In this document: piece by piece, positions 1 to 21,104 of the stretch
How positions within the stretch are numbered: position 1 is the stretch's first letter
Layout: every line of letters begins with the position of its first letter
Source: a virus
IMG/VR virus record: IMGVR_UViG_3300014493_000103
Span: 1-21,104 of that record
DNA length: 21,104 nucleotides
Reading direction: 5' to 3' (one strand)
Notes under the pieces: generated by a model
Databases searched by the model: none
Seen by the model: only the letters and a program-made list of their open reading frames with translations
What the model was told of the DNA's origin: nothing
Position numbers and translations under genes: made by a program

Positions 1-672
1 AGATTATGTTCTATCTGTCAAAAACTAAAAATCACGCCTTATAAAGATATATGTCGTTCTTGTTATCAAAGTAAATGGGCATTGTCCATCAATCCCAAAG
101 TATGTGCTGACTGTTTAAAAACATTTAAGACTTCAGGGAAAATATGTCTTTCTTGTGCTAGGAAAGTAAGATTGAAAAATAAAACATTTCTTCCTTGCAA
201 TGATTGTCAACGCAAAAATGTTTTAATAACAAATATTGGATTAAATCTTTGTACAAAATGCACAAGAAATAGAAAAGATAAAGAAATACCAGGACATAAA
301 GAAAAAAGGATTAAACAAAATAGAGGTTGGCAAAGAAAATCAAGGGGAATTCCTATCGATTTACCATTAAGAAAGTCTAAAGGTTATTGGAAAACACCTC
401 AAGGATATATAATGATTTATAAGAAAGGTCATCCTAATGCAAATGCTAATGATTGCATACAAGAGCATTGTTATGTTATGAGTGAATACATAAAAAGGCC
501 TTTAAAACGTAATGAATCTGTCCATCATAAAAATGGTATCCGTGATGATAATCGCATTGAAAATCTTGAACTTTGGCATCGTGGACAACCTTCTGGTCAA
601 AGACTAGAAGAAAAAATTCAATGGGCTAAAAGCTTTTTAGAGGAATATGGATTCAAAATAGAAAAAGCATAG
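1..672 (+). CDS. HNH homing endonuclease with three zinc ribbons, 5'-truncated by window edge
   Basis: The reading frame is open from base 1 to a TAG at 670-672, so the start lies upstream; an internal TTG at 82 is not needed as a start. Within the visible 223 residues there are three tandem Cx2C...Cx2C pairs (C3/C6 with C18/C21, C35/C38 with C49/C52, C66/C69 with C84/C87), which read as three zinc ribbons for DNA binding. A basic linker follows, then a C-terminal HNH nuclease core with EHCYVM, the VHHKNG motif and DNRIENLELW, typical of phage HNH_3 enzymes. Such enzymes cut DNA and spread themselves as selfish genes between phages. It ends 7 bases before the portal start, so it is a free-standing insertion, or the tail of an intron, next to the portal gene. 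The family call is firm; the target site is unknown. Confidence 0.85.
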   Translation, partial: RLCSICQKLKITPYKDICRSCYQSKWALSINPKVCADCLKTFKTSGKICLSCARKVRLKNKTFLPCNDCQRKNVLITNIGLNLCTKCTRNRKDKEIPGHKEKRIKQNRGWQRKSRGIPIDLPLRKSKGYWKTPQGYIMIYKKGHPNANANDCIQEHCYVMSEYIKRPLKRNESVHHKNGIRDDNRIENLELWHRGQPSGQRLEEKIQWAKSFLEEYGFKIEKA

Positions 673-4636: not shown

Positions 4637-5374
4637 ATGAATCCTAATACACCTGAAAATATACCAGAGTCACAAAAAGAACAAGTCCAAGCAACTGAGC
4701 CAAGCCAAATAGAAGCAGCCCCAAATATAAAATCAGAAGAAAATAAAACGAATTGGAAAGCATTTAGAGAGCAACGGGAAGCAGAGCGTAAAGCTAAAGA
4801 AGCTGCCGAGAAAGCTATGGGTGAGGAAAGAGCTAGGGCAGATGCTTTGAAAGCAGCTCTGGAAGCCATTACCAATAAACCTAATGTTCAAAATGATCGT
4901 CAATATGACAATCAAAATGATATTGCAGATACAGAAGAGCAACGAATTGATAAACGAGTGGATGCAATACTCAAACAAAGAGAATCTGAATATGAAAGAC
5001 AGAGGCAAGAGAAAGAAAAGCAAGAAGCCCCTAATAGGATCATGCAAACTTATCCTGACTTCAATCAAGTAGTAACAACAGAGAATTGCGATTATCTAGA
5101 TTATCATTACCCTGAACTTACAGCACCATTTAAATATATGCCCGAAGGTTACGAAAAATGGAATGCTATGTATAAAGCGGTAAAGAAATTCGTTCCTAAT
5201 CCAGAATCTAAGAAAGATTCAAATAAAGCAGAGAAAAATCTTGCCAAACCTGGCTCTATTTCTTCACCAGGTAACACACACGGCGGTAATGCAATGCCAG
5301 GTGCCAAACTGGATGAAGCCCGCAAAGAAGCGAACTGGGCGAGGATGCAGAAGCTTTTGAAAGGATTGTCATGA
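4637..5374 (+). CDS. Scaffolding protein
   Basis: The 245-residue protein has the hallmarks of a phage scaffold, the internal chaperone that templates procapsid assembly and is then removed. These are a disordered Glu/Gln/Pro-rich N-terminus, a long charged coiled-coil stretch (about residues 38-125, with dense Lys, Glu, Arg and Ala), a Ser/Gly-rich linker, and a basic helix at the very C-terminus (KLDEARKEANWARMQKLLKGL), the usual coat-binding element. It directly precedes the capsid gene, as expected. The start ATG has GGAG 4 bases upstream. The stop overlaps the next ATG (ATGA). No sequence motif proves the role; order and composition carry the call. Confidence 0.8.
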   Translation: MNPNTPENIPESQKEQVQATEPSQIEAAPNIKSEENKTNWKAFREQREAERKAKEAAEKAMGEERARADALKAALEAITNKPNVQNDRQYDNQNDIADTEEQRIDKRVDAILKQRESEYERQRQEKEKQEAPNRIMQTYPDFNQVVTTENCDYLDYHYPELTAPFKYMPEGYEKWNAMYKAVKKFVPNPESKKDSNKAEKNLAKPGSISSPGNTHGGNAMPGAKLDEARKEANWARMQKLLKGLS

Positions 5375-5547
5375 AAACAATTTTTGTATGCGTAGAAGCA
5401 GGAAATGAAGGTGTGAAGCTTAAAGCTGATTGGGCTGAATGGACTGATGAATTAACACTTTTCCAAGGAAAACGTGGTGATTTCGACAACTCATCACTCA
5501 TAGCAGTTTTTAAAAAATGGGAATATTTCTTTGAGGTTCAGGAATAA
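5371..5547 (+). CDS. Small protein of unknown function (58 aa) between scaffold and capsid
   Basis: ATG at 5371 overlaps the scaffold stop codon (ATGA), and the frame runs 58 residues to TAA at 5545-5547. The product starts with a beta-like segment (TIFVCVEAG), contains several Trp and Phe residues (WAEWTDE, KKWEYFF) and ends acidic. It is cytosolic-looking and I recognise no family. The tight overlap implies translational coupling with the scaffold, so a role in head assembly is possible but not shown. Confidence 0.5.
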   Translation: MKTIFVCVEAGNEGVKLKADWAEWTDELTLFQGKRGDFDNSSLIAVFKKWEYFFEVQE

Positions 5548-5553
5548 AATATA

Positions 5554-5583
5554 TTGCAAAAATAAACCTTTAATTTGCATAGT
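5554..5583 (+). promoter_or_regulatory. Possible promoter before the capsid gene
   Basis: TTGCAA (5554-5559) and CATAGT (5578-5583), 18 bases apart, each match the sigma-70 hexamers at four of six positions. They lie at the start of the 154-base untranslated stretch before the capsid gene, the most highly expressed gene of such a phage. The match is weak and the call tentative. Confidence 0.25.
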
Positions 5584-5654
5584 GAATCTAGCTGATTACT
5601 TCACGCCTCGCTAGCACGACAGACTTTTGCCATTCGTCAGGGCAGCAGAATTAA

Positions 5655-5669
5655 ACGTTTCGCAAACGT
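5655..5669 (+). other. Hairpin in the capsid mRNA leader
   Basis: ACGTTT (5655-5660) and AAACGT (5664-5669) form a perfect 6-bp stem around a CGC loop, about 30 bases upstream of the capsid start codon. It has no U-run and is not a terminator. It could stabilise the leader or shape ribosome access; this is inference. Confidence 0.4.
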
Positions 5670-5701
5670 GGGATTTTACTAACCTATGACAAGGCGTTAT
5701 T

Positions 5702-6111
5702 ATGTCATTCCCATCAGGTATTACAAATATCAACAATTTTGCTCCGGAACTTCCCGTACAAGCGGCAGAAGACCTCCTTAGCACACCTATGTTCAACCTC
5801 ATTCACTCTTTCGGGGTTGATCTACATCATGCCGAAGCTTATATCGGTAAAACAACACGTATGTCACGTTTTGAGCGTTTATCTACGGATGGCGGTCAAT
5901 TAGATGGTTCTGGAATAGACCCCGCTTCTGAGGTCCCTGTCAGGACTGACATCGACGCGACCATGGAAATATATGCAAAATCAATCGTAACTAACGAACA
6001 AGTCGCATTATATGAGAACAGCAAGACATTAACCAAGTTCACAGCATTGCTAGGACAATGGTTAAGGGAAAAGGAAGACTTGCTAATGCGAGATTTATTC
6101 TCTTCGAGCGT
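5702..6111 (+). CDS. Major capsid protein, exon 1 (N4-gp56 family)
   Basis: This is the N-terminal part (residues 1-136 plus two bases of codon 137) of the coat protein that builds the icosahedral shell. The segment with the kinked start PSGITNINNFAPELP, then the GKTTRMSRFERLS motif, the VPVRTDIDATMEIYAKSIVTNEQVALYENS stretch and LREKEDLLMRDLF match the N4-gp56 type coat. The unspliced frame runs on only to a stop at 6167-6169, with a non-family tail. Removal of 6112-6328 joins it to exon 2 in frame: ...MRDLFSSSV-SYINATGG..., exactly the length expected in the family at this point. Start ATG 5702 follows a 154-base leader, with a CAAGG site upstream. The spliced protein would be 322 residues. 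Confidence 0.8.
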
Positions 6112-6328
6112 TAACGTACAGGCGCTCGTTAAACCTACTCTGATTGGCTTGGAACTCCTCGCTGCTTAAGCAGACGGACAACAAGGCGGAAGGCGAAAGC
6201 CACCGTGAACGACTAAGTGAGAAGGCACCGAAAGGTGAAGCGATAGTCTGAACATCATAGAGATATGGTGAGGGCGATCCGAAGAGGTTGCCCCGCCTGA
6301 GAAATCAGGTCATAAAAGTAACAGAATG
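6112..6328 (+). ncRNA. Group I self-splicing intron in the major capsid gene
   Basis: Core helices can be drawn directly. P1: exon CGAGCG (6105-6110) with intron CGCTCG (6123-6128), and a U-G wobble (T6111 with G6122) marking the 5' splice site. P3: CTCGCT (6158-6163) with AGTGAG (6216-6221). P7: GACTA (6211-6215) with TAGTC (6244-6248). P8: CACC-GAAA-GGTG (6226-6237). P9: GGCGATC/GGTTGCC (6273-6279/6286-6292). A further hairpin is CCTGA-GAAA-TCAGG (6296-6309). The order P3, P7, P3', P8, P7' is the group I core. The intron ends at G6328, and splicing 6111 to 6329 restores the coat frame. At 217 nt it is compact and has no endonuclease frame inside. The P4-P6 domain lies at about 6164-6205 but I did not resolve it with certainty; P10 looks weak. 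Confidence 0.85.
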
Positions 6329-6887
6329 CTCCTACATCAATGCAACAGGTGGTTCGAACGGGGATCAACCTAGTAATATCTCGTTGAACGATGTGAACAA
6401 CATCGAAACGATCTTACTCGGTAATGATGCCCGCACAATGCTTGTCAGCATAGATGCTCAAAATAAATTTTCGACAGGCCCGACCAGGGATGCCTTCATT
6501 GCGCTTGCTTCGACTAATGTCACTAATGACTTGCAGAAAGTCCAGGGTGTTTTACTTAAAGCAAACTATCCATCGCAAGAGGGTATTAGACCAGAGGAAT
6601 ATTGCTCCATTAGCCGATTCCGTTTCTTTGTATCGTCTAAAGCAGCAAGAATACCAGGGATCTCACTCAAAGGTAATACAGTTTATACAGTTCCGATGTA
6701 TGGACTCGAAGCTGCCGCTAAGATTGAGCAGAATAACTACACTGCTGTGGTCGGTTATAGACCGCCTTGGGTTGTTTCATCTGTGGCTCAAAATAGCCAA
6801 CTGTATGCGAAGTTTGCAATTGCTAGAGCGATTACAAACCAAAACTGGATCTCCGGTTTGAATGTAACAACTTTTAGCCCATCATAA
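6329..6887 (+). CDS. Major capsid protein, exon 2 (N4-gp56 family)
   Basis: The exon supplies the last base of codon 137 and residues 138-322 of the coat protein. It opens with SYINATGGSNGDQPSNISLNDVNNIETILLGNDA, a recognisable N4-gp56 coat segment, and continues through YCSISRFRFFVSSKAARIPG and GLEAAAKIEQNNYTAVVGYRPPWVVSSVAQNSQLYAKFAIARAI to the end. Read alone, an in-frame TTG at 6288 could seem to start it, but the sequence 6288-6328 belongs to intron helix P9 and the 3' intron tail, and no ribosome site precedes it. The stop is TAA at 6885-6887; the next gene's ribosome site (AAGGAG) follows at once. Confidence 0.8.
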
Positions 6888-6896
6888 GGAGACTGT

Positions 6897-7934
6897 ATGC
6901 CTTTTACGATTGTTACTCAGGGTACTTTTACACAGCCTGCAACAGCTGTGAATCAAATTATCCCATTACCTTCTGGTGTCGACTACTTTAAAACTATTAA
7001 CTATACGCAAATGGCGGCTGCTTCGCCTACAGTATGCGTGGGTGGTGAATGGTTTGGGGGTGGTATTACTGCGGTTAATGACGGTATCCGTTGGAGAAAA
7101 GCGGGTTCCACGGTCATTAATATGGATCTATTTTCCACATCGACTGCCTCAAATGGTTTCACGTATGTTTCAAGCTTTCCATATCCACAAGCTCCTTTGA
7201 CAGGTACAACCATTACCCAAGCAGCAGCTGCTGTAGCTACTGTAACGAATACATATAGCGAGGGCGACCAAGTTGTCATTTACAATGCTGTAGGTATGGA
7301 ACAAATCTCAGGAATGACCTTTACAATTTCCTCTGTGAGTGGTTCTGGCTTTACATTGCTTGGGCTTAACTCCTCTGGATTTGCAGCTCCTGCGACAGCA
7401 TTTACAGTTAGAAGGGTAAATCAATATTTGCCAGTGGAACCAAGTTACTTATATGTTACTGCTGTTTCTAAAGCAGTAAATGCACAAGTGACCGTTTCTC
7501 AAGCTAATATGGTTTATTTAGGTCAGAAATGGGAATTCACTGTTCCAGGATCATTTGGAATGGTTCAACTCAATAATTTCTATCAAAATCAAAGTAAGCC
7601 TGTTGTTGTTACATCTATCGTTGATCCATATAATTTCTTGATCAACGTGGATACATCTAGTTATACAGCATTTGCTTTCCCAGCAAGTTCAGGATCGCCG
7701 ACAACTCAACTGCCAGCGACCATTGCACCAGCCGGGCAATCAACACAATATAACCCATTGACGGGCGTTCAAACTGGTTATAACTTTAACCAAGTACCAT
7801 TTCATAGTGGTGTTTTTGTCCCTTACATATATTTACCAGCAGGAGCGAATTCCCCAGGGGGTTCTGCTGCTGATGTTATCATCTGGCAGGCGTACAAAAT
7901 GGAGACAGCGACTATAGGTGGTAATGGAACTTAA
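6897..7934 (+). CDS. Head decoration or fibre-like virion protein with E1-FCCH-like domain
   Basis: This 345-residue, Gly/Ala/Thr/Ser-rich, beta-predicted protein lies directly after the capsid gene (AAGGAG site 5 bases before the ATG), the usual place for a decoration, head-fibre or other capsid-surface protein. Residues about 117-175 (YSEGDQVVIYNAVGMEQISGMTFTIS...SGFTLLGLNSSGF) follow the small beta-barrel pattern annotated as the ubiquitin-activating E1 FCCH domain in many phage structural proteins. Residues about 195-260 contain a second beta unit with GQKWEFTVPGSFGM and NFLINVDTSSYTAF, which recurs in the next gene. No signal peptide or enzyme motif is seen. A virion surface role is likely; the exact position in the particle is inference. 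Confidence 0.6.
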   Translation: MPFTIVTQGTFTQPATAVNQIIPLPSGVDYFKTINYTQMAAASPTVCVGGEWFGGGITAVNDGIRWRKAGSTVINMDLFSTSTASNGFTYVSSFPYPQAPLTGTTITQAAAAVATVTNTYSEGDQVVIYNAVGMEQISGMTFTISSVSGSGFTLLGLNSSGFAAPATAFTVRRVNQYLPVEPSYLYVTAVSKAVNAQVTVSQANMVYLGQKWEFTVPGSFGMVQLNNFYQNQSKPVVVTSIVDPYNFLINVDTSSYTAFAFPASSGSPTTQLPATIAPAGQSTQYNPLTGVQTGYNFNQVPFHSGVFVPYIYLPAGANSPGGSAADVIIWQAYKMETATIGGNGT

Positions 7935-12529: not shown

Positions 12530-12555
12530 CGACAAACATAACAAAAGGTTTGTCG
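12530..12555 (+). promoter_or_regulatory. Hairpin masking the HNH start codon
   Basis: CGACAAAC (12530-12537) and GTTTGTCG (12548-12555) make a perfect 8-bp stem with a 10-base loop. The ribosome site AAAGG (12544-12548) is in the loop and the right arm ends on the first base of the GTG start. In long transcripts from upstream the start region would be occluded. In transcripts from the local promoter the left arm is mostly missing. Confidence 0.65.
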
Positions 12556-13241
12556 TGAGAAATTGTAAAACATGTGGTGAATTAAGAGAATTAATTTTTG
12601 GTGGTCTTCTTTGTAGAGATTGTAGAAATAAAGAACATAAACAAAAATGGCGTGATAAAAATAAAGGTAAAATATGTCCAATTTGCAATCAGGAACATAG
12701 AAAAGTTGCTAAAGAATGTTCAATCAAATGTATGATTTTGAATAGGCATATTGTATCTAATGAATGTTGGGAATGGACGGGAAAGATTGGGAAAAATGGC
12801 TATGGATGTCTTGTAAGCGGTTATAACTCAACTAGAAAACATTTATTGGCGCATAGAGAAAGTTATAGAATATTTAAAAGTGAAATACCTGAAGGTAAAT
12901 TTGTTTGTCACTCATGTGATAATAGAAAATGTGTTAACCCTAATCATCTGTGGATTGGAACACACAAAGAGAATATTCATGATATGATAAAAAAAGGAAG
13001 AAATAAAATTTCCTCGGGATGGAAACATAGCGAAGAGATTAAACAGAAATTTAAGTTGAGAAAGCGTCCTCAGAAAAAAGGAGAAGCATCTTGGCTTAGT
13101 AAGTTAAATGAAAAACAAGTTTTAGAAATTAGAGAATTATTAAAAACAAAAATACAAAGAAACGAAATTATAAAGAAATATGGAATATCAAGATCTAGTT
13201 TACAAGATATAAGAACTAGAAAAACTTGGTCTCATATTTAA
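12555..13241 (+). CDS. HNH homing endonuclease, free-standing
   Basis: This 228-residue protein starts at GTG 12555 (AAAGG 6 bases upstream). The N-terminus has zinc-binding cysteines (C4/C7 with C20/C23, then C41/C44 with C55/C59). Next is a CWEWTG motif (71-76) with GYG, then the nuclease core AHRESY (99-104), VCHSCDNRKCVNPNHLW (117-133; H119, N128, H131), typical of phage HNH_3 enzymes. The last 45 residues (KLNEKQVLEIRELL...IIKKYGISRSSLQDIRTRKTW) form a helix-turn-helix for site recognition. It lies between the nozzle gene and a tail gene with no intron core visible, so it is probably a mobile intergenic endonuclease. It is more AT-rich than its neighbours. Own promoter and start-masking hairpin are listed separately. 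Confidence 0.9.
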   Translation: MRNCKTCGELRELIFGGLLCRDCRNKEHKQKWRDKNKGKICPICNQEHRKVAKECSIKCMILNRHIVSNECWEWTGKIGKNGYGCLVSGYNSTRKHLLAHRESYRIFKSEIPEGKFVCHSCDNRKCVNPNHLWIGTHKENIHDMIKKGRNKISSGWKHSEEIKQKFKLRKRPQKKGEASWLSKLNEKQVLEIRELLKTKIQRNEIIKKYGISRSSLQDIRTRKTWSHI

Positions 13242-18548: not shown

Positions 18549-21104
18549 ATGGCACAAGGCTTTTCCAGCTTCCCTTTCGACAGTATCCAAGTTGATCCTT
18601 TCGCTCATCCTCCTATGGTTGGCCCAAATAAAAGACCTCCAACTATAAACGATGTCTATAACATCGGGACACAATGGAGCGATTATAGCGTTAATCCTCC
18701 AGTAATTTGGGAAACGACAGGGGCCGGAAATTGGGGTCAATCTGGGGGTGCAGCTGCAACGACAACTTCTTTAGGCACTGTCTATCTTGCTTCTTTAGCC
18801 CAGGTAGAATCTGGAGGCGCACCGAGTACAAGTTATGTGGCACCTGCTAATTATGTTGCTACAGCATTAGCCGCTATTGTCGTCGGTGCTGGCGTTCCTG
18901 CTACTACGTTACAACAAGGTTATGTATATCTTGCAACAAATGCTCAAGCACAAGCGGGTCTTCTTACCACAAACTATGCAATCAATCCTGCAAGTTTAGC
19001 TTCTGTCTTTGCTGTTCCTTTTGCTTTAGGTTCAACTACTCCAGCGGCTGTAACATCTACAGCGCTGACCTCTGTTGGTATTGTCAGTTTAAATGCTTCT
19101 GGTACAGCAGCCACAACAATCGGAGGTTCGTCCGGAGCTATTACGATAGCGGTTGGGGCAGGAAACTTTTCATTAACTGGTGGTGGTAATACCGTCGGGA
19201 TTGCTAATGATGCTGCAGCTAACTTGGTGACGATCGGCAGCACAACTGCGGGTGCTTCTTTAACGCTCAAGGCTGGTGCAGGAAATTTTGTATTTACATC
19301 AGTTGCAGGTATGACGGCGACAATGTTTGCAGCGAATACCACGGGCGCAATAACTATCGGCGGGACGGCTCAATCTACAGGTGCAATTACTCTTGGTAAT
19401 AGCTCGGCAACGAACACCTTGAATTTAGGTATCGGCAACGGTGCTAATACACTCAATTTGTCAACTGGTACAGGTGGTAATACGGTTCACTTGGCAGATG
19501 GTGCTGGAACAAATACCATCACAATGGGATCTGGTGCATCCATTAACACGATCACAATCGGGTCGGTTAGTTCAACAAGTGCTACAACAATTCTTGCTGG
19601 TACAGGTGGATTTACACTTGACTTTGCAGCTACGACAGTAGCAGCAATAGGCGCAAGTTTAACCAGTGGTACTTTGACAATTGGCGGCACAGCGATGACC
19701 GGCAACCTTGTTCTTGGTTCAACATCTGGAGCAAGCCAATCTGTTCTAATTGCTAATGGTGCGGGCGCGACTGGTATCGTTTCGATTGGTAACGTAACCA
19801 CTGCGGGCATGACAATAAACATTGCTAGTGCAGCTTCGATTGCTACTGCCAATTCTGTAAATATCATGACTGGTGCAACTCCTGGGGCAACTGAAACGTT
19901 GACAATTATGTCAGGTGTGGGCTCAGCAGGCAATCAGGTTTTTGCTTGCCAAGGTGCTGCAATTACTCAAGGTACAAATACAGCGACTTTCTTCGGTGGG
20001 ATAGCCTCTGGTGGTACTAATAGTTTCAACGTGTTCTCTGGAGCTTTCACAGGCGGAACAAATGCTATAAATCTGTTCTCAGGAGCTTTTACTACGGTTG
20101 CTGCTACTTTCAACTTATTTTCAAATAATGGTGCAACATCAATAGGCACTGCTAATATAGGAACTGGAACAGGTGCGGCCCACGTTACTAAAATCGGATC
20201 AAATGCTGGTGGTAATGTAACGATTATCGGTGGTTCTTCTGCTACGATTGGAATCGGTTTGGGTGGTAATGCAGCCCAAATCATCACGATTGGGGCAGTT
20301 GCACAAACTGGTAAAATATCCATTGCTGATTCCACAGCAGGATTAGCAGCCGTTGATCTTATGAATGGTGTTGCCGGAACAGCCCAAACATTAAACATTG
20401 CGTCAGGAACATCCTCGACAGCTGCTCAAACAGTTAATATATTGAGCGGAGTTACCCCAGGAGCGACAACAACGCTGAACCTACTAAACGGTATAGGAAG
20501 TGCAGGAAATCAGGTTATCACAGCATTAGGTGGTATTCTGACGCAAGGTACTAACAGCCTAAATATATTTAATGCTGCATTCACAGGTGGAACAAACAGC
20601 GTAAACATCTTCAGCGGTGCTTTTACGACTGTTGCTTGTACTTTCAACCTCGTAAATAATAATGGTGCCACTTCTATCGCTACACTCAATCTTGCCACTG
20701 GAACAGGAGCAGCCCACGTTGTGAATGTTGGGTCGACTTCTTCCGGTAACGTAACAATTGCCTCTGGAACTACGTTAGCCCTTAATGCAGCTTCTGGTGG
20801 CACAATAACAGTTGGGGGAAGTGTTACAACTGGCACGATCAACATAGGAACAAATGTAACAACCGGGCCTGTAAATATCGGTAAGACAGGATCATCATCG
20901 ACAACGACAATTAATTCTGGAAGTGGTGGTATTGTTCTTGCAGGTAAATTGAACTTAGTAGCAGCAGGGCCACAAGTGTTGCAAGGTTCTGGATCACCTA
21001 ATGGCTCGGTGACAGCTCCTCAAGGTTCGTTATATTTAAGAACTGACGGAAGTACTGCAATTACAAGGGCTTACTCGAATACCGATGGGGGCACAACCTG
21101 GACG
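18549..21104 (+). CDS. Long repetitive tail fibre/spike protein, 3' end outside the window
   Basis: ATG at 18549 follows an AAGGAG site; the frame stays open for 852 codons to the window end. The first 75 residues (FSSFPFDSIQVDPFAHPPMVGPNKRPPTINDVYNIGTQWSDY...WETTGAGNWG) look like a tail-attachment region. From about residue 150 the protein is a Gly/Ala/Thr/Asn/Ser-rich repeat array of short strands such as NTLNLGIGNGANTLNLSTGTGGNTVHL, with about 11-15 residues per unit, suggesting a beta-helix or elongated trimeric fibre. It ends in view with GSPNGSVTAPQGSLYLRTDGSTAITRAYSNTDGGTTWT, a tip-domain pattern common in phage fibres. It would bind the host surface. Almost no charged or cysteine residues occur in the repeats. 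Confidence 0.8.
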   Translation, partial: MAQGFSSFPFDSIQVDPFAHPPMVGPNKRPPTINDVYNIGTQWSDYSVNPPVIWETTGAGNWGQSGGAAATTTSLGTVYLASLAQVESGGAPSTSYVAPANYVATALAAIVVGAGVPATTLQQGYVYLATNAQAQAGLLTTNYAINPASLASVFAVPFALGSTTPAAVTSTALTSVGIVSLNASGTAATTIGGSSGAITIAVGAGNFSLTGGGNTVGIANDAAANLVTIGSTTAGASLTLKAGAGNFVFTSVAGMTATMFAANTTGAITIGGTAQSTGAITLGNSSATNTLNLGIGNGANTLNLSTGTGGNTVHLADGAGTNTITMGSGASINTITIGSVSSTSATTILAGTGGFTLDFAATTVAAIGASLTSGTLTIGGTAMTGNLVLGSTSGASQSVLIANGAGATGIVSIGNVTTAGMTINIASAASIATANSVNIMTGATPGATETLTIMSGVGSAGNQVFACQGAAITQGTNTATFFGGIASGGTNSFNVFSGAFTGGTNAINLFSGAFTTVAATFNLFSNNGATSIGTANIGTGTGAAHVTKIGSNAGGNVTIIGGSSATIGIGLGGNAAQIITIGAVAQTGKISIADSTAGLAAVDLMNGVAGTAQTLNIASGTSSTAAQTVNILSGVTPGATTTLNLLNGIGSAGNQVITALGGILTQGTNSLNIFNAAFTGGTNSVNIFSGAFTTVACTFNLVNNNGATSIATLNLATGTGAAHVVNVGSTSSGNVTIASGTTLALNAASGGTITVGGSVTTGTINIGTNVTTGPVNIGKTGSSSTTTINSGSGGIVLAGKLNLVAAGPQVLQGSGSPNGSVTAPQGSLYLRTDGSTAITRAYSNTDGGTTWT
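19821..20240 (+). repeat. Tail fibre internal repeat, copy A
   Basis: Encodes about 140 residues from IASAASIATANSVNI to GGNVTIIGGSS. It matches copy B in order and sequence (TPGAT, GSAGNQV, TQGTN, FTGGTN, FSGAFTTVA, NNGATSI, TGTGAAHV, GNVTI), but has three of the 14-residue TN-x-x-N/F units where copy B has two. Confidence 0.75.
20397..20773 (+). repeat. Tail fibre internal repeat, copy B
   Basis: Encodes about 126 residues from IASGTSSTAAQTVNI to GNVTIASGTT, starting 576 bases (192 codons) after copy A. It is an in-frame tandem-type duplication with one 14-residue unit fewer than copy A. Confidence 0.75.

Follow-up and report, generated by a model that had tools for sequence, protein, structure and literature searches.

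The window, the whole stretch of 21,104 nucleotides analysed here (positions 1 to 21,104, which make up the entire IMG/VR virus record IMGVR_UViG_3300014493_000103), carries a major capsid gene in two pieces, a 217-nucleotide insert between them with the features of a group I intron, and two free-standing HNH nuclease genes (Table 1). A first-pass annotation, made from the letters of the window alone, had proposed that the coat gene looks like two broken genes, and that a junction at 6111/6329 rebuilds its reading frame. The capsid gene does lie in two pieces, and joining 5702–6111 to 6329–6887 gives a 322-residue protein with no stop. Read unspliced, exon 1 runs into an in-frame stop within the insert.

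Table 1. Capsid locus, predicted intron elements and HNH genes of the window.
Feature	Coordinates	Strand	Basis or remarks
Free-standing HNH gene 1 (HNH_3)	82..672	+	In some records, both with and without the intron, relatives immediately precede the capsid gene
Major capsid gene, 5' exon: codons 1–136 and Val137 bases 1–2	5702..6111	+	Joined translation
P1 5' strand, exon side, CGAGCGU	6105..6111	+	Pairs with 6122–6128; covaries across carriers
Predicted group I intron, 217 nt; no ORF of its own of ≥60 aa; last base G6328	6112..6328	+	Empty sites, same-site introns, covariation
Possible P10 strand; pairs with exon bases 6329–6330	6120..6121	+	Read by eye from carrier table
Internal guide (P1 3' strand), GCGCUCG	6122..6128	+	Carrier table, P1 covariation
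P3 5' strand; pairs with 6219–6225; one A·A mismatch in window copy	6134..6140	+	96.9% paired; 6/7 pairs with two-sided change
P4 5' strand; pairs with 6182–6185	6148..6151	+	100% of cells paired; 3/4 pairs invariant
P5 5' strand; pairs with 6176–6179; C·C at helix base in window copy	6155..6158	+	86.9% paired; 4/4 with two-sided change
In-frame stop in P5 extension of intron; terminates unspliced exon 1 frame	6167..6169	+	
P6 (6186–6189 with 6203–6206) and P6a (6192–6194 with 6199–6201)	6186..6206	+	P6 100% paired; 3/4 with two-sided change
P7 5' strand: A6209 and 6211–6215, C6210 bulged; predicted guanosine-binding region	6209..6215	+	Pairs with 6244–6249; invariant in 60 rows
P3 3' strand	6219..6225	+	Family alignment
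P8 hairpin, GAAA loop	6226..6237	+	4/4 pairs with two-sided change
P7 3' strand	6244..6249	+	Family alignment
P9 hairpin, GAGA loop	6253..6270	+	Lower 3 pairs 99.4% paired, with poor alignment above them
P9.1 hairpin	6272..6293	+	89.7–97.5% of cells paired; 8/8 with two-sided change
P9.2 hairpin, GAAA loop	6296..6309	+	Stem base 95.8% paired, with poor alignment above it
Major capsid gene, 3' exon: from Val137 base 3 through the stop codon	6329..6887	+	Joined translation
Free-standing HNH gene 2 (HNH_3)	12555..13241	+	Link to the intron unsupported

The coat had also been assigned to the N4-gp56 type. This assignment held for the intronless homologue L001, which is 98% identical to the window coat at the protein level and matches TIGR04387 with 63.1 bits (cut-off 60). 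Pfam and PHROGs gave no family for the window coat protein, and a profile search of the PDB gave no match at E 1; an AlphaFold2 model built from 21 close homologues reached a pLDDT of 30 and was discarded. Elsewhere in the window, the long opposite-strand frames at 18974–20845 are rich in Ala, Val and Pro and are perhaps the shadow of a repetitive plus-strand gene running off the end.

We then compared the junction with uninterrupted relatives, which the first-pass annotation had named as the place where a translated insert would be seen. A protein search of viral contigs yielded 250 relatives, of which the best 80 (87–98% protein identity) were retained. In all 80, a single nucleotide alignment spans the junction and the insert is absent; 69 of these alignments contain small gaps at some point in the gene. 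Because the ranking favours uninterrupted genes, this count shows that the site exists empty and does not give the frequency of empty sites. The motif DLFxxxVxYxN lies at the junction in 79 of the 80, the exception being L077.

Within the insert, P3, P4, P5, P6, P7, P8, P9, P9.1 and P9.2 are all present in group I order, with GAAA loops capping P6a, P8 and P9.2 and a GAGA loop capping P9. P1 comprises 7 bp and ends in U6111·G6122 at the splice site. These elements include those listed in the first-pass annotation (P1 with its U-G pair, P3, P7, P8, P9 and a GAAA-capped hairpin). The terminal base is a G (G6328), as in all nine tabulated carriers described below, although the 3' end pattern used requires a G. 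Subgroup IA introns, which are common in phages, have P7.1/P7.2 stems between P7 and P3. This feature is absent from the window intron, where only 3 nt (6216–6218) separate P7 from P3.

Covariation was assessed across a wider family. A P7-region core pattern was found in at least 120 stretches of IMG/VR viral contigs, and 60 of 96 compact candidates were kept after a similarity filter as alignment A1, on which we tested a hand-written group I structure with the P3/P7 crossing. Standard pairs fill 91.8% of the 2,898 cells in the 60 rows, compared with 34.5–44.2% for slid versions of the same structure, and both sides change in 38 of the 52 pairs. P7 is uninformative in this test, as it is invariant and both its strands were fixed by the search pattern, while the upper parts of P9 and P9.2 align poorly across the family (33.9–71.4% paired). 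All 200 shuffles of the intron and its short flanks fold less well than the native sequence (z −3.13). P1 and P7 are missing from the minimum-energy fold, in which their segments pair otherwise; the program used cannot model the P3/P7 crossing.

Nine further contigs carry an intron at the exact Val137 position (L112, L143, L201, L202, L203, L204, L214, L216 and L217), found by exon-edge patterns, guide patterns and core scans. Over 2,692 bases L203 and L202 are 99.96% identical, and the L216 intron is identical to that of L112, so that seven distinct alleles are known besides the window. Omitting L203 as a copy of L202, we tabulated the window and eight contigs. Three 5' exon ends occur among the carriers: TCGAGCGT in the window, L201, L202, L203 and L204; TCGTCCGT in L112, L214, L216 and L217; and AGTTCGGT in L143 only. 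In each of the nine tabulated carriers, the guide pairs with its own exon over 6–7 bases, including a U·G pair at the splice site. Across the seven distinct rows, 98% of P1 cells are paired, compared with 20–55% for slid versions; four of the seven pairs show two-sided change and the splice-site U·G is present in every row. Over 6 bases, the three guide types could pair with 8, 0 and 7 of the 80 intronless alleles, respectively. Read by eye, the first base of exon 2 and intron base 10 form C-G in four carriers and A-U in five, covariation as would be expected of a possible P10. Matching of this kind across the exon–intron border is the trace that splicing should leave in the sequences.

Some intronless alleles (L063, L064, L007, L040, L054 and L055) already have the exact TCGAGCGT. 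Two of these, L063 and L064, adjoin the carrier L202 in the capsid tree and so reflect either intron loss or an unused target. An enrichment value for TCGAGCGT (five of the five carrier contigs then known versus 6 of 79 intronless alleles; Fisher 1.5e-5) was discarded because L202 and L203 are near-copies and the carriers found later have other sequences.

Splicing would follow the established chemistry of group I introns. The guide at 6122–6128 would pair with the end of exon 1 in capsid mRNA, a guanosine bound in P7 would cut after U6111, and the freed exon end would then attack after G6328, the joining of the exons restoring the 322-residue coat frame.

The Rfam group I model, a search that the first-pass annotation had proposed and whose failure it had counted as a refuting result, is silent on the window copy: RF00028 gave no match at its cut-off or at E 10, and a scan of 15 family loci likewise gave nothing above the cut-off. 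With the threshold relaxed to E 10, 4 of 12 records match, with 16–30 bits against a cut-off of 50; as 8 of 14 control genomes also match at E 10, only small E-values count. Such values were obtained below the cut-off for two of the same-site introns, L202 (E 2.2e-8) and L201 (E 1.3e-7). Another family member, L157:500–1050, gave no group I match at E 10 when searched against RF00028 and all other Rfam families. This silence does not, in our view, refute the intron, because the model finds sister introns below the cut-off. The gathering cut-off is a detection rule rather than a defining feature of group I. Judged by its sequence features the element is group I, although the library misses it. 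Used at its cut-off, RF00028 misses compact phage introns of this family: it finds none in the 15 family loci, and the core pattern occurs in at least 120 IMG/VR stretches.

A family model, R1, was built from the 60 rows of A1. It scores 172.9 bits on the window intron (by construction) and gives no convincing second intron in the window, the next match reaching 8.1 bits. Across 93 loci, R1 detected only the same-site introns of L201–L204 and a weaker second match (41.1 bits) in the L201 capsid gene.

We next asked how the intron relates to the genes that carry it. Over their 217 bases, the introns of the window and L204 share 95.4% identity, compared with 78% and 72% for the adjoining 100-nt exon flanks. 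At 70 columns that vary in the family they remain 89.4% identical, the highest value of all pairs (mean 41.9%, s.d. 10.3). In a capsid DNA tree built without the site, the seven carriers need seven changes (shuffled mean 6.8). This tree was rebuilt without L143, which lay on a very long branch in the first version and was probably out of register, and without the duplicate L216. It rejects the window and L204 as sisters (p-AU 0.003) and likewise rejects a clade of the four rows that have the first guide type (p-AU 8e-5), values that are somewhat favourable because the clades were named after the intron identities and an earlier tree had been seen. In the intron tree, the nine same-site rows cluster, needing three changes versus a shuffled mean of 8.6 (0 of 500 as low), with good support on only 10 of 60 inner branches. 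From the contrast between intron and exon identity and the conflict between the trees, we conclude that the intron has, on this sequence evidence, moved horizontally between distantly related capsid lineages. The first-pass annotation had allowed that the intron might be stranded, and these signs of recent transfer contradict that option.

Our preferred reading, to which we give a probability of about 0.9, is that 6112–6328 is a functional endonuclease-free group I intron that splices from capsid mRNA and whose copies have moved horizontally at one codon. Structure, empty sites and guide pairing agree with this reading, the core of which (a compact intron of this class in the major capsid gene) had already been put forward in the first-pass annotation. 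Copies would have been transferred between distantly related capsid alleles at the Val137 codon, as the identities and tree conflict suggest, most likely through recombination during co-infection, whether or not a nuclease assists in trans.

Two further comparisons bear on how such transfer might occur. L112 and its near relative L024, which is intronless, differ at 70 of 966 capsid bases, 21 of which fall within −32 to +34 of the site; none of 20,000 shuffles was as extreme. This patch looks like a co-conversion tract, although the same pair has other patches of differences nearby. Pooling seven carriers gave a weak excess (p = 0.04), with L112/L024 by far the largest value. The L214 intron appears mosaic: its guide segment matches L112 at 24 of 26 positions and L204 at 18 of 26, while P3–P5 (40/43 versus 33/42) and P9–P9.1 (46/46 versus 38/46) are closer to L204 than to L112 and the remaining segments favour neither. 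Same-site introns may thus recombine with one another, although the likeness of guides could also reflect constraint by the same exon. We tentatively entertain, at less than even odds, a Val137 allelic series of endonuclease-free introns in which guides are matched to the synonymous serine-codon haplotype and catalytic cores are exchanged by recombination. If true, this would make the intron modular, an exchangeable ribozyme on a haplotype-specific guide that spreads without a nuclease of its own.

Among explanations for the spread, the one that survives best, and to which we give nearly even chances, is that the intron is only a passenger of ordinary recombination between co-infecting phages. 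The patchiness of L112/L024 around the site, the mosaic of L214 (its guide like that of L112, core segments like those of L204) and the lack of a nuclease in the intron are all as this explanation would have it. However, the adjoining exons of the window and L204 are no more alike than the exons elsewhere, so that very short exchanged tracts would be needed.

Mobilisation in trans by the nuclease of a sister intron, located at Val137 or elsewhere in the capsid gene, seems unlikely. In the carrier L201, a further capsid intron does lie near residue 102 and contains a gene for an I-MsoI-like nuclease (E 1.5e-5) at L201:3656–4159 (+), antisense to the capsid gene, and similar inserts occur in other family introns. 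At the Val137 site itself, however, the nine tabulated introns are 217–373 nt long and therefore too short for the usual nuclease gene, and the P6 frames of L202 (48 residues) and L217 (68 residues) gave no PHROG matches. Relatives of the L201 nuclease adjoin further family introns, on the opposite strand in, for example, L123, L139 and L182 and on the same strand in L117 and L164. P6-loop frames of 48–72 residues that read through P7 are present in L202, L217, L124, L136, L168 and L086, some with CxxC pairs; searches with four of these six found no clear match to a family.

Collaborative homing, in which a free-standing HNH nuclease spreads the intron by cutting the insertion site of capsid alleles that lack it, appears a little less probable again. 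Such intron–nuclease pairs are known in phages (PMC3984707, PMC10448857), and in some relatives, among them the carrier L202/L203, HNH1-type genes directly precede the capsid gene. The first-pass annotation had suggested that the intron may depend on one of the window's HNH genes, but we found no association: the 1.2 kb preceding the capsid gene contain an HNH1- or HNH2-type gene in 1 of 8 carriers, compared with 13 of 77 intronless relatives (Fisher p = 1). This comparison covered intronless relatives with at least 800 nt of upstream sequence and excluded L204, which has too little, and the neighbours sought were relatives of HNH1, HNH2, an L202 gene and the L201 nuclease. Of the 13 intronless neighbours, 11 are of the HNH1 type and 2 of the HNH2 type, some of them near-copies. 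Some intronless phages have such an HNH gene beside an intact capsid gene, among them L007, whose site has TCGAGCGT, and HNH1 of the window is 5 kb away from the capsid gene. The pattern route with the HNH1 query found no relative in viral contigs; relatives are present in the capsid-adjacent stretches. An int-alpA RNA (RF02996) lies just upstream of the capsid-preceding HNH gene in L202 (7379–7443) and L203 (2202–2266).

Strictly vertical inheritance under strong RNA constraint, with no movement, is very improbable: group I cores are conserved, and guide and exon could co-evolve by compensatory change, but 95% intron against 72–78% exon identity, high identity even at variable columns and the tree conflict all speak against it. 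That the insert is no intron at all but a translated insertion, a frameshift or an assembly error, as the silence of Rfam on the window might suggest, is scarcely credible in view of the in-frame stops, the covariation and the same-site inserts in other IMG/VR contigs, which make an assembly error in the window very unlikely.

The horizontally moved, endonuclease-free intron that we favour can be set beside several known systems. The psbA system of cyanophage S-PM2 reportedly has an endonuclease-free intron in an essential gene and free-standing nuclease genes in the same genome. These features are common to that system and the window, and the psbA intron with F-CphI serves as an example of collaborative homing (reviewed in PMC3984707, discussed in PMC10448857; PMC6083498). 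The linkage of nuclease and intron that characterizes collaborative homing was not seen among the window's relatives, given the carrier and intronless counts above.

Two phage cases come from one report, which describes RT-PCR-confirmed splicing for both (PMC3706429). LittleE, like the window, has its intron in the major capsid gene, but as an 819-bp insertion with a nuclease gene on the opposite strand; mycobacteriophage BAKA, like the window, has an endonuclease-free intron in a virion gene (265 bp), but in a tail gene (PMC3706429). Both were considered as members of the same family and rejected, as neither stretch matches R1 at E 1 or better. Jug gut phages contain 2,513 predicted group I introns, many per genome and averaging ~206 nt, with splicing supported for 37 of 76 and many stand-alone nuclease genes alongside (PMC12363816). 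Compared by description, they share compact introns and stand-alone nucleases with the window, but the host genes given as examples are terL, nrdD and polymerase genes, from huge phages of the gut (PMC12363816). Bastillevirinae introns are likewise phage group I introns in essential genes, some of them nuclease-free; as listed in the part considered, they are longer (mean 802 bases), mostly IA-like, carry a nuclease loop in 32 of 45 cases and include no capsid gene (PMC11878797). A further likeness is GenBank podovirus MW202674 (ctn9Y15; L224:2434–2650), where R1 scores 183 bits between two CDS labelled P22 coat protein; it differs in this coat label, and the element is not annotated as an intron, a 'hypothetical protein' being called inside it. 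Introns in N4-gp56 coats were not the topic of any title found in the open-licence literature.

The window intron belongs to a group of phage introns that is large and poorly catalogued, and it shows how an important structural gene in phages of this kind reads as two broken genes. For specialists, the interest lies in a series of alleles at one codon, which have matched guides and show signs of having been transferred without an endonuclease; together with the empty relatives, this series makes the persistence and movement of endonuclease-free introns directly testable.

In this wider group, the capsid gene is an intron hot spot: of 40 loci that have a homologue of this capsid protein (among L081–L217, same-site carriers and L203 included), 31 contain cores flanked on both sides by capsid matches, 34 cores in all, with positions recurring at about residues 103, 137, 147, 185, 224 and 234. 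One contig, L130, has six R1 matches (5019–7064) within 2 kb of a single N4-gp56-type capsid gene. Some weak ones among them are probably halves of introns with inserts; as the core pattern occurs three times, at least three introns lie in this one gene region.

The P7 pattern was also present in five bacterial contigs, from Kushneria, two Burkholderiales, a Lachnospiraceae and Intestinimonas (L218–L222), which may be prophages. R1 scored 102–179 bits on four of these and E 0.025 on L218, where the match is cut off by the contig end. Finally, the cultured Nitratidesulfovibrio phage SRB7757 (L223:2505–2727) has a family intron that adjoins a frame of 807 aa, after which comes an HNH-like frame. 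Judged by eye from its motifs, the 807-aa frame looks like an anaerobic ribonucleotide reductase with an intein-like insert.
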